From Candidatus Methanoplasma glyptotermitis (GTDB lineage Archaea > Thermoplasmatota > Thermoplasmata > Methanomassiliicoccales > Methanomethylophilaceae): a DNA stretch of 44,312 nt. This document shows, piece by piece, positions 170-3,725 of this stretch (its first letter is position 1; each line of letters starts with the position of its first letter). A program made the translations under genes and the position numbers. The notes beneath the pieces are model-generated. The model saw only the letters and a program-made list of their open reading frames with translations, was not told the DNA's origin and ran no database searches. The stretch lies in the NCBI GenBank assembly GCA_031267895.1, contig JAIRYF010000068.1:1-44312 (forward strand). The letters run 5' to 3'.

Positions 170-532
170 TTGTTTTCTAATGTAGACAACTATGAGATGA
201 AAATGCCGAAAAGGTATGTGGAACTGTCTGAGGAGGAAATGGAATACGGTGGTGGGTTCCTAAATTTTCTCGTCTCCGCGGTGGCAACAGTCGTATCTGT
301 TGCGGTGACCCAGTATGCCACGGCAACTAACAATAAAGCATTGTATGCCACAGGTGTTGCTATAGGTGTCGTTGGATCAATTGTTTCTTTTGGTTTGTCA
401 ACTGCAGCGTTGGCTGCAACAACAACAACGGCCGCACAGGCAGGAAAGTACGTAGCTACCACGCTTGTCTTAAATCCAACTGTAAGCTCCATACAGTTGG
501 CAAATGATATTAACACCTACAGGTCATTGTGA
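170..532 (+). CDS. bacteriocin-like small protein with double-glycine leader
   Basis: A 120-residue protein starting at TTG. Residues 1-28 look like a charged, hydrophilic leader: the stretch YVELSEEEMEYGGG (residues 16-29) has the acidic helix followed by Gly-Gly that is typical of leaders cleaved by C39-peptidase ABC exporters. The remaining ~92 residues are Ala/Val/Thr/Gly-rich, with two hydrophobic segments (about 32-46 and 60-83), as in pore-forming class II bacteriocins. It is followed after 64 bp by a multi-pass membrane protein that could be its immunity or export partner, and the whole pair is repeated downstream (1181-2228). What is seen is the leader and the duplication; bacteriocin function is inferred. 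No exporter or peptidase gene is in the window. An alternative is a small membrane-associated protein unrelated to killing. Confidence 0.55.
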   Translation: MFSNVDNYEMKMPKRYVELSEEEMEYGGGFLNFLVSAVATVVSVAVTQYATATNNKALYATGVAIGVVGSIVSFGLSTAALAATTTTAAQAGKYVATTLVLNPTVSSIQLANDINTYRSL

Positions 533-596
533 ATGTAGGCACTGAACCTTTCAAAGCCCTTATGAAACTTTCTCCAAACCACTTCTACAACAAGGC

Positions 597-1184
597 ATGG
601 TTTCACACATGAGCAACAATGCGAAGAAAATGTACATTATAGTCGGTACGATTTGGCTTTTGCTTTCTGCGTTTTTGATCATATCAGTTCCGCACGTGAG
701 GTTTGCCACTGTAGCGGCGGCTATAGCTGCTGCAGCAATGATTTTCGCAGGGCTGAGTCCAAAGACAGAGTATGAGCAGGAAGACGGTCACGATCGCGAC
801 GGCCTGATGGCAAAGAGTCTTTTGCCGGGGTACATACAGCTTGCGGTGTTTAGAGAAAGAGGGGGAATCGCACAGCTGGTCGTTTTTCTGATAGGACTGA
901 CGCTTGCGGCAATCGGTATGAACGGCCTGATATCCAACGATCCCGAACTCATACACGAGGCGTTCATGATGAGCCTCTATGGGATGACGGTAGTATTCTT
1001 TTCAATAACGTGGTCTGCGCTTGAGGTCAATGAGTATTGCAACAAGAGGAAAATGCCGTTCGACGGCGGGATATTTGAGATGAGATGGAACAACACAGAA
1101 CTCGGGTTGAAGATATTAGCGGGTACAGTGTTGATTGTGCTCATATCCCTGACGGCCGGGTTCTACTACGGCAATGTGATGTGA
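597..1184 (+). CDS. multi-pass membrane protein, possible immunity/accessory partner
   Basis: A 195-residue protein with about five hydrophobic segments (residues ~13-31, 35-51, 92-112, 120-140, 170-190) and no recognised domain. It is a paralogue of the protein at 1584-2228: both have a short Lys/Ser-rich stretch before a conserved L-P-G turn near residue 77, and a matching stretch, EVNEYCNKRKMPFDGG here against DTEIVCNRLGLPYTGY there. Its position directly after a double-glycine-leader protein, and the repeat of this arrangement, suggest a dedicated partner such as immunity. ATG 609 is an alternative start. The last bases overlap the GTG (1181) at which the second leader peptide originally began, so the genes were translationally coupled. 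Confidence 0.55.
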   Translation: MVSHMSNNAKKMYIIVGTIWLLLSAFLIISVPHVRFATVAAAIAAAAMIFAGLSPKTEYEQEDGHDRDGLMAKSLLPGYIQLAVFRERGGIAQLVVFLIGLTLAAIGMNGLISNDPELIHEAFMMSLYGMTVVFFSITWSALEVNEYCNKRKMPFDGGIFEMRWNNTELGLKILAGTVLIVLISLTAGFYYGNVM

Positions 1185-1231
1185 AGTTCGCACATCTAAA
1201 CAAATATGAGCTGAAGATGCCATAAAGGTGC

Positions 1232-1540
1232 GTGGAACTGTCTGACGAAGAGATGGAGTACAATGGAGGCTTCGCACGGATTCAGGCGCAGTTATATCGG
1301 CTGTATGCACTTACTGCATCTGTCACAGTTACAGTGGCAGGAAATACGGGATTGATGGACAAAGATGCGGCCGAAAAGATAAGCACCGCTGCCACTGCAG
1401 TTGGCGTTGTGACTGGGTATGCAAGCGGAATAGGGGCACTGCGGACATCAACCGCCACAGCAGCTGCAAGCACACTGGTCAGAGCAACATCAAGTGTTTC
1501 CTCGGAACCGGGGCTCAATATGGCAGCATCCCAGCTCTAA
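1232..1540 (+). CDS. second bacteriocin-like protein, leader interrupted by an ochre stop
   Basis: The open frame from GTG 1232 encodes 102 residues beginning MELSDEEMEYNGGF, clearly the same leader as the protein at 170. The homology extends upstream in the same frame to GTG 1181 (FAHLNKYELKMP against FSNVDNYEMKMP), but codon 1223-1225 is TAA where the paralogue has AAA (Lys). So either the leader is now shortened by starting at GTG 1232, which has no well-spaced SD, or the gene is newly inactivated. The body is Ala/Thr/Val/Ser-rich with Gly-Xaa-Gly hydrophobic stretches, and diverges strongly from the first copy, as expected for peptides with different targets. The paralogous membrane protein follows after 43 bp. 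Confidence 0.45.
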   Translation: MELSDEEMEYNGGFARIQAQLYRLYALTASVTVTVAGNTGLMDKDAAEKISTAATAVGVVTGYASGIGALRTSTATAAASTLVRATSSVSSEPGLNMAASQL

Positions 1541-1583
1541 AATCATACAAAGCATATCCGGATAACTCAGAGACAGATATTCT

Positions 1584-2228
1584 ATGAAGAGAAAGTACAG
1601 ATTCTGGGTCGTATTGGTCACACTGTATGCCTCTGCTCTGTTGCTGGCTATCTATATCGGCGAACATATGATCATTCTGGCCGCATCGGCATCATTTTTT
1701 GCATTGAGCGCAGGCCTGCTAACAAACGATCATCTTGATGATGATGAAAAAAACAGGCCGTCCGCGATGATTAGGTCGTTCGTTCCGGGGCTTGGCCATG
1801 TGTACCTCCGTGCGTACCGGCGTGCTATCTTATTTTCATTTGGTTATCTGGCCATAGTACTTATCGTCTCTGGAATGCTGGTTTTGGAATTGGAGGCGAT
1901 CCTGCTGTTGTTTTCGATGTTTGGAATCATTATCGGGATGATGTTTATCTCCCTTATTGACACAGAGATTGTCTGCAACAGACTCGGACTTCCGTACACT
2001 GGATATGCATACGAAGTGAGAATACATGACTATAATCTGGCATTCATTGCGTCACTGACGATAGCGTATGCAGTTGGAGTCATTCTCCCGGTGTATGGGA
2101 TGGTGACGGGAAACAGCGGGAATTTTGTCATGAATCTGACAGCGGCAGCAGCCTGGTCGTCTGTGTTGCTGATAGGATTCGTCCTTTTTGTAGTTATGAA
2201 AAGAATGCCTTGCAACCAAATGATCTAA
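1584..2228 (+). CDS. multi-pass membrane protein, paralogue of 597-1184
   Basis: A 214-residue integral membrane protein with roughly six hydrophobic segments. It shares with the upstream paralogue the central motif around SFVPGLGHVYLRAYRRA (residues ~67-83) and the cytoplasmic-type stretch DTEIVCNRLGLPYTGY. The P-G-L-G-x-x-Y pattern resembles small membrane proteins of the TM2 type, but no family could be assigned. It is the second member of the second leader-peptide/membrane-protein module. Immunity or a role in export is inference from context only. A T7 run about 90 bp downstream may end the transcript. Confidence 0.5.
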   Translation: MKRKYRFWVVLVTLYASALLLAIYIGEHMIILAASASFFALSAGLLTNDHLDDDEKNRPSAMIRSFVPGLGHVYLRAYRRAILFSFGYLAIVLIVSGMLVLELEAILLLFSMFGIIIGMMFISLIDTEIVCNRLGLPYTGYAYEVRIHDYNLAFIASLTIAYAVGVILPVYGMVTGNSGNFVMNLTAAAAWSSVLLIGFVLFVVMKRMPCNQMI

Positions 2229-2317
2229 ACCTGCGTGTCACTTTCTGTAACTGTGCGGCCCGCCGTACAAGGGTTTCCCTCGAGGCATGGTCCTCTGATG
2301 CATGGCGGACCTGCATA

Positions 2318-2324
2318 TTTTTTT
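2318..2324 (+). terminator. possible oligo-T terminator
   Basis: Seven consecutive T on the plus strand about 90 bp after the last membrane-protein gene. Archaeal RNA polymerase stops at oligo-T tracts, so this may end the 170-2228 transcript. No hairpin is needed or seen. Confidence 0.3.
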
Positions 2325-2374
2325 GGACAGACAGGAGTTGCCTGAGATTCTTGGAGATTTCTCCCGAATTGCCG

Positions 2375-2382
2375 ATCTGTCT
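2375..2382. repeat. target-site duplication, left copy
   Basis: ATCTGTCT, identical to 3726-3733 on the other side of the insertion sequence. Eight base pairs is the usual duplication length for ISL3-family elements. Confidence 0.9.
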
Positions 2383-3725
2383 GGTCCTATTCTGTTTTGT
2401 GTGGAAATGATTCCGGGCGCAGCCCGGAATGAAGACATCTTACACACTCCGTCCGTACATATCCGTCTTCTCCTTCGCGCTTACCAAATAGCACATGGAG
2501 ATCAGGCTTTCTGTCCTGCGGAATCCTCTTGCTCTTGACTTTATAACAGAGATCATGCTGTTAGTTCCTTCAAGAACAGCGTTGGTAAGCCGTGAGGAGA
2601 ACCGCTGAAGGATATGCGCGGCGTGCTTTTCAACCGTATCAGCAAGTTTCACAAAATGGTACATCTTCGCCATCCTTGCCCATTGTATCCATCCCTTCAG
2701 ATGCTGTTCCGCGGAATAGACATCGCCCATACTGTATAACGAACATAACGATTCCTTCAGTCTGTACGCTATGCCCAGAACCTCATTGTCCCGGCATATC
2801 CTGTCCCTCAGGACAAGGTCCCCGCAGGACAGGTTCTTCGGATTCCTCAGAAGAAGGTACATCGCCTTCATTCTGTTCACGGCAAGTTTCAGCTCACCGC
2901 ATTTGGTGTCATTCAGAGCCTCGTTTGCCATCTTTACCAGATGGAATCTGTCGGCGGTGATCTTGGAAAGAGGGAAGTGTTTCCTTATCCCGGAGATGTA
3001 CGCTCTGCCGAAGTCGCATGAGAAATCAGATATCTTCCGGGCCTTTCCGCCGTGTTCCGCCAGGAATCTTTTGAATCTTCCGACAGTTCCTGAATCCTTG
3101 CCTTCGGTAACGAATATTATTCTGTGTGTGTCCAGATCTGCGAACACCGTAAGAAAAGAATCCCTTCCCGAGAAACATTTCTCGTCCACACCTACTCTTC
3201 TTACTTTGGAGAGGTCCAGCCCTTCCGTTAACTTATCCGTGTATGCTCTCACCACTGTCCAGATCCGGTTCGGATATTCGTGAAGCATATCTCCGGCGGT
3301 CCTGACAGGCATCTGTCTTACCATGGATACAATCATGGACTCCATCAGCAGCGTGAATCCCGAGCCGGGTCTTGCCCACGGAACATCCGTCTGCTTCACA
3401 CCGTGTTCGGGACAGTCCGCTCTCGGAATGTCAGCACGGATGTATGTCTTCATGCCTCTCATGTCTACGTCCCTCCACGTTCTTTCTTTTATCCGATCGT
3501 GGACTTTGCACATACGTCCGCATTCCGGACATCTTACCTTCATTCCGAAAGGAACATCCAGCCTTATGTGCACCTCCTGTTCCCCGCCGGCATCCCTGTA
3601 GGATACGTCGGCGACTTTCCAGGGATCCTCCAGTTTCAGTCCCCACTCCCAGAATTCCTTCAGATCGTTCACGGACAGGTATCAGACTCAATCTACATGA
3701 AATCCACACAAAACAGAATAGGACC
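2383..3725 (-). mobile_element. complete ISL3-family insertion sequence
   Basis: A 1343-bp element bounded by perfect 23-bp terminal inverted repeats (2383-2405 and 3703-3725, starting GGTCCTATTCTGTTTTGTGT) and by perfect 8-bp direct repeats ATCTGTCT (2375-2382 and 3726-3733). It carries a single transposase gene on the minus strand. The perfect ends and intact reading frame indicate a recent insertion and a probably active element. It separates the small-peptide modules from the ribosomal operon; its right edge lies 14 bp before the TATA box of rpl1. Confidence 0.95.
2440..3672 (-). CDS. ISL3-family transposase
   Basis: A 410-residue DDE transposase that catalyses cut-and-paste movement of the surrounding element. 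The N-terminal part has a zinc-ribbon with CPECGRMC near residue 48 and a further C-x2-H near 88. A helix-turn-helix region (about 100-150) follows. The catalytic domain begins at RRVGVDEKCFSGRD (first Asp) with a second acidic site in the KITADRFHLVKMANEA region, and ends with EGTNSMISVIKSRARG, the typical ISL3 glutamate helix near residue 370. Length is normal for the family. The start is GTG, 31 bp inside the right terminal repeat. No frameshift is seen. Confidence 0.92.
   Translation of the reverse strand: MNDLKEFWEWGLKLEDPWKVADVSYRDAGGEQEVHIRLDVPFGMKVRCPECGRMCKVHDRIKERTWRDVDMRGMKTYIRADIPRADCPEHGVKQTDVPWARPGSGFTLLMESMIVSMVRQMPVRTAGDMLHEYPNRIWTVVRAYTDKLTEGLDLSKVRRVGVDEKCFSGRDSFLTVFADLDTHRIIFVTEGKDSGTVGRFKRFLAEHGGKARKISDFSCDFGRAYISGIRKHFPLSKITADRFHLVKMANEALNDTKCGELKLAVNRMKAMYLLLRNPKNLSCGDLVLRDRICRDNEVLGIAYRLKESLCSLYSMGDVYSAEQHLKGWIQWARMAKMYHFVKLADTVEKHAAHILQRFSSRLTNAVLEGTNSMISVIKSRARGFRRTESLISMCYLVSAKEKTDMYGRSV

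Follow-up and report, generated by a model that had tools for sequence, protein, structure and literature searches.

A family of double-glycine leader peptides paired with membrane proteins in Methanomassiliicoccales archaea

Systems of the microcin V type comprise a precursor with a double-glycine leader and a long, hydrophobic core rich in glycine and alanine, a C39 ABC exporter, a membrane-fusion protein and an adjacent membrane protein. The canonical double-glycine leader has hydrophobic residues at positions -4, -7 and -12 before the cut, and immunity genes often occur as tandem arrays and as orphan copies. To our knowledge, few direct weapons are known from methanogens, and an arrangement of this kind, which is well known in bacteria, has hardly been described in archaea.

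The archaeal family described here resembles class II microcins in its anatomy, namely in its double-glycine leader, in its C39 ABC exporter with an HlyD-like adaptor, in the character of its cores, and in the adjacent membrane protein. It differs in that its host has no outer membrane, TolC was not seen, the leader spacing is one residue shorter, and a single genome carries several paralogues with a near-identical 5'UTR and leader. Unmodified class II bacteriocins from Firmicutes, multi-gene loci with immunity arrays among them, have in common with it the leader, an exporter of the TIGR01193 family, a candidate immunity gene beside each peptide, and orphan partners. Those bacteriocins are small and cationic, however, whereas the archaeal cores are mostly 64–112 residues long, hydrophobic, near neutral and rich in alanine and glycine, with no match to a bacteriocin family in Pfam or NCBIfam (best TIGR03949, E = 0.19). 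The original prediction had likened the peptides to class II bacteriocins; the leaders and the linkage to C39 genes agree with this, but the length and charge of the cores place them nearer to class II microcins.

Archaeal lanthipeptides (archalans, PMC10105419) are also ribosomal antagonistic peptides of archaea, but they are LanM-modified and haloarchaeal, and no modification enzyme was recognised beside the Methanomassiliicoccales loci. Makarova et al. (2019; PMC6393860, Fig. 2E) presented a single archaeal island in which a C39 peptidase is accompanied by proteins with double-glycine leaders and by gene duplications. The text of that article available to us interprets the island as a bacteriocin-like toxin or quorum sensing, and the pairing with membrane proteins, the cassette-like leaders and the co-variation of exporter and leader do not appear in it. 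The view that such peptides are rarely described in methanogens therefore needs qualification: full-text searches found no account from Methanomassiliicoccales, although overlap with the larger survey from the Makarova group (10.1128/mBio.00715-19) is possible, but the idea of archaeal C39 and double-glycine systems had been proposed once before (PMC6393860).

Two modules at the start of the contig

The window is the whole stretch of 44,312 nucleotides that was analysed, and is contig C65 of a draft assembly of Candidatus Methanoplasma glyptotermitis (72 contigs, 1.72 Mb, completeness 97.9%). The host is thus archaeal, as had been proposed, and belongs to the genus Candidatus Methanoplasma. 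Close to the start of the window, four genes on the forward strand follow each other in the order peptide, membrane protein, peptide remnant, membrane protein.

The first precursor is an open reading frame at 170–532 with a TTG start, which is preceded at a distance of 7 nt by a Shine-Dalgarno-like AAGGAGG (156–162); a similar motif is found upstream of the copy on contig C61. Its leader, MFSNVDNYEMKMPKRYVELSEEEMEYGGG, occupies positions 170–256. The remainder of the frame (257–532, including the stop codon) encodes a hydrophobic core of 91 residues with two predicted TM-like stretches, which has an orthologue in a second species (G003:C82a; 44% over 87 residues). Membrane protein 1 (597–1184) is 195 residues long with about four TM helices and is the candidate immunity partner of core 1; it is 39% identical to the protein downstream of the orthologous core in G003.

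The second precursor begins at about position 1181, where a GTG overlaps the stop codon of membrane protein 1. Its leader (1181–1270) is broken by an in-frame TAA at 1223–1225, and reads KFAHLNKYELKMP before this codon and RCVELSDEEMEYNGG after it. The frame of the 89-residue core is still open (1271–1540, including the stop codon). Because the leader contains this stop, and because the sole alternative start is an internal GTG at 1232 that would give a shortened leader, precursor 2 is probably silent, a pseudogene in the present assembly. The order of leader, membrane protein, leader and membrane protein noted in the original prediction is therefore real, but its second leader is not intact. 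Core 2 belongs to a type, which we call type 2, that is common to G003, G010, G016 and G044. Its candidate immunity partner, membrane protein 2 (1584–2228), has 214 residues, about six TM helices and a PGLGHVYL motif; it is a paralogue of membrane protein 1, as expected (23% over 133 residues, E = 9e-6).

An ISL3-family insertion sequence lies next to the locus on the reverse strand (2383–3725; transposase 2440–3672), with inverted repeats and an 8-bp target duplication, ATCTGTCT. It leaves the peptide and membrane-protein genes uninterrupted. Beyond it is what we take, from a reading of the translations, to be the ribosomal protein L1 operon.

A constant leader joined to variable cores

The leader is present in six copies on five contigs of the host genome (C1, C28, C39, C61, and two on C65; E-values 5e-71 to 1e-11), each of them followed by a distinct core. 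Within the family it was found in 17 of 102 genomes and in 5 of 14 genera, including Candidatus Methanoplasma reticulitermitis, Ca. M. porotermitis, Ca. Methanoplasma sp. and a Methanomassiliicoccaceae archaeon. Among 400 genomes sampled across the class, only members of the host's Methanomassiliicoccales family were seen to carry it, and no relatives of it were found in viral contigs. Given the six copies in one genome and the recurrence across the family, we consider chance occurrence of the leader to be ruled out on sequence grounds.

The columns that are invariant among 13 relatives (P13, L19, E23, M24, Y26, G28 and G29) all lie within the leader, while the cores vary. This is what the original prediction described as nearly identical leaders with differing bodies, and it also establishes the conservation of the GG site. 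The family thus has a conserved N-terminal leader ending in GG, GA or GS, as expected of double-glycine peptides, although some copies end in DGS, DGL or ITGS instead of GG. Compared with the canonical positions, the tyrosine at -4 fits, and the methionine at -6 and the leucine at -11 are one residue short.

Two further members of the family are unusual. In G016 (L052 6750–7112), a Glu codon of the orthologous type-2 leader is replaced by TAG (YVELSED*MEYKGG, the asterisk marking the TAG), and a C39 fragment, truncated, is found at a distance of about 0.9 kb; the TAG could be decoded, the order being one that uses pyrrolysine, or the gene could be a pseudogene. In G010:C122 (L047 1300–1509), the same leader is followed by a short core rich in tyrosine and cysteine, CIRYYCYPVSVSKKYTYVAPSYKYSYYYYPYYYGGYWC, unlike the hydrophobic cores.

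Comparison of paralogues shows the 5'UTR and leader to be near-identical, with ungapped identity dropping to chance at the GG codons. The leader DNA is 91% identical between the first copy in the window (C65a) and C61, and 93% identical between C1 and C39, for which the upstream region matches at 39 of 39 positions; two neighbouring copies in G003 (G003:C25) match upstream at 45 of 45. No BLAST similarity was found between the protein cores of C65a and C61, nor between those of the two G003 neighbours. The cores of C1 and C39 are weakly similar, so that divergence with indels is a possible alternative to core exchange for this pair. Tandem copies in G011 were excluded from the argument, as their cores are 82% alike and merely indel-shifted. 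The pattern suggests that cores have been exchanged at the junction between leader and core. A more extensive proposal, which we make tentatively and hold to be somewhat less probable than not, is of a polymorphic-peptide system in archaea: a constant cassette of promoter, 5'UTR and leader would recombine at the GG codons with exchangeable units of core and cognate membrane protein, so that the set of secreted antagonistic peptides and immunities in each methanogen strain would keep changing, and the spacing of the leader would have been adjusted by one residue to fit a separate clade of exporters.

Partner genes and the C39 exporter

The linkage of peptide and membrane protein is repeated in other genomes, which had been set beforehand as a test of the prediction. 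The four-gene order recurs in G003, where the first core is again paired with its membrane protein, and pairs are found in several further relatives. The type-2 core and the type-2 membrane protein are together in five of five loci (G000, G003, G010, G016 and G044), covering two genera, and a third type of pair is common to contig C39 of the host genome (G000:C39) and to G037:C2, from a third genus (core 47%, E = 4e-23; membrane protein E = 3e-6). Over 21 loci the similarity of the cores tracks the similarity of their partners (Mantel r = 0.68, p = 5e-5), across genera too, and the same is found within one membrane-protein family (Mantel r = 0.72, 10 loci, p = 2e-4). The Mantel test replaced a pair-count permutation (p = 0.003), which was dropped because the membrane-protein superfamily is widely shared. 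In this comparison the partner was picked by script as the most TM-rich open reading frame within 300 bp downstream; the short partners at C61 and G003:C25b may be wrong, and some downstream genes at other loci are short or unrelated. A cognate partner gene is therefore co-inherited with the core, in line with the suggestion that the two are matched.

A profile of the membrane protein alone was sufficient to expose new leader peptides at G059:C8 and G037:C2. Orphan copies of the membrane protein are present at G002:C92, G004:C93 and G011:C2. At G011:C14 (L051 6444–10420), one leader peptide is followed by five tandem membrane-protein paralogues with no leaders in between, the last four of which alternate between two kinds.

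In G002, G010, G015, G042 and G044, a C39-peptidase ABC gene is divergent from the leader gene and within about 200 bp of it, and in G001, G007 and G010:C122 it is within a few kilobases. The exporter is thus genetically linked to the precursor in these relatives. Among the 102 family genomes, 14 contain both leader and C39, 3 the leader alone, 5 C39 alone and 80 neither (Fisher p = 1.1e-10, a value that overstates the evidence since the genomes are related). C39 was not detected in the leader-bearing G003, G011 and G037, the assemblies of which are 84–88% complete. The relatives' exporter scores 591 bits against TIGR01193 (cut-off 524), is composed of the Pfam domains C39, ABC_membrane and ABC_tran, and has an HlyD-like neighbour. 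Its best solved relative is bacterial PCAT1 (PDB 4ry2, 6v9z), to which it is homologous over its full length (551 bits to 4ry2) with the catalytic C, H and D retained. The archaeal operon differs in having an additional conserved soluble protein of about 156 residues between the exporter and the HlyD-like adaptor (L053 5433–5903, with equivalents in L044, L048, L049, L126 and L128), which matches no Pfam family above the cut-off (DUF5085, E = 0.034). Judged from this homology, cleavage and export of the cores by the C39 exporter are well-supported predictions.

In the exporter tree, clade A pairs with EMEYDGG leaders, whose spacing falls one residue short of the canonical one, and clade B with canonical EMEYITGG/S leaders (G007, G016); some clade-A nodes are weakly supported (0.31–0.70).

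Other loci with secretion genes were noted as well. A different type of locus in G053 and G064 (L122 5023–9328, L123 3732–7932) encodes a Nif11-like leader ending in TGG or NGG with a Cys-rich core, a protein of about 490 residues, and two ABC proteins, one of them with C39, which suggests a modified-peptide cluster in Methanomassiliicoccales. In G008:C131 (L129), genes for type I secretion next to a very large open reading frame are bacterial-looking, and possibly represent contamination of the draft genome.

The original prediction had proposed a search for C39 exporters in the same genomes. This was borne out for the relatives but not for the host, where a search with TIGR01193 found no intact copy. 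The clade-B exporter gene on contig C15 (L015 1299–5358) is split where it encodes the peptidase domain, an insertion sequence (1593–3351; inverted repeats of 27 bp, duplication CACACC) having entered there, and clade A is represented by fragments on C1 and C71 only. Given the loss of the second leader to a stop codon and the lack of an intact exporter, the system in this genome may be decaying, or the locus may be kept for immunity. We conclude that the system is real and family-wide, and that the copy in the window is partly decayed.

Possible functions of the cores and their partners

Searches of Pfam and NCBIfam placed the membrane proteins in no known immunity family above cut-off. DUF6677 (6 of 10 members), DUF1430 and TM2 were considered as families for them and rejected, all being below cut-off (best E = 0.0014). 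A fold search with the model of membrane protein 2 (pLDDT 78) gave nothing significant, with a best match at E = 1.3; the precursor model (pLDDT 50) was of low confidence and was left out of this search.

On balance we favour, with moderate confidence, a family of C39-exported peptides with membrane-active antimicrobial cores, from which the adjacent membrane protein gives protection. Each of the two modules would consist of a precursor and a multi-TM membrane protein; in the precursor, a constant leader of about 29 residues, with GG at its end, would precede a hydrophobic core that varies in sequence and is about 90 residues long. An exporter of the PCAT1 kind, with its HlyD-like adaptor and the small soluble protein, would recognise the leader, cut after GG and export the core. 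Going by the gene anatomy, the released core would most likely act on the membranes of close relatives, and the membrane protein would shield the producer.

Matched pairs of peptide and membrane protein, several to a genome, would also be expected if the core were a strain-specific pheromone and the membrane protein its receptor or a receptor-like sensor, and PMC6393860 left toxin versus quorum sensing open for its island. We regard such signalling as unlikely, because hydrophobic cores of about 90 residues bear little resemblance to the short peptides that usually serve as pheromones, neither a kinase nor a regulator nor a cytoplasmic output domain was seen next to the pairs, and the orphan tandem arrays of membrane proteins fit protection better. 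Slightly less probable again is that the cores are exported proteins with a structural or community role, the membrane protein aiding their export or anchoring: the hydrophobic, Ala/Gly-rich composition and the short Tyr-rich core in G010:C122 would suit this, and the small double-glycine proteins that Synechococcus elongatus requires to form biofilms offer a precedent (PMC4997328), but it has no need of type-specific pairing with diverse membrane proteins, of orphan arrays, or of cores that diversify strongly behind a constant leader.

It is a more serious, if still doubtful, proposition that the family was once functional and is now a relic in the host genome, pseudogenised and without a working exporter. 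The stop codons in leader 2 and in its G016 orthologue, the split exporter on C15 and the fragmentary state of the matching clade all point this way; on the other hand, the frames of precursor 1 and of both membrane proteins are open, intact exporters still stand next to intact leaders in relatives, and the assembly is a 72-contig draft. This explanation is compatible with an antimicrobial function in the relatives. That the genes are ordinary small membrane proteins with an accidental GG, as their TM-like cores might imply, we discount almost entirely in view of the leader E-values and the invariant columns, and it is refuted by the exporter linkage.

If the antimicrobial interpretation is true, gut Methanomassiliicoccales show bacteriocin-style competition among archaea, and the loci supply concrete pairs of peptide and partner, together with exporters, for testing. 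If the peptides are active against methanogens, they could help to explain strain turnover in the guts of termites and perhaps of other animals.
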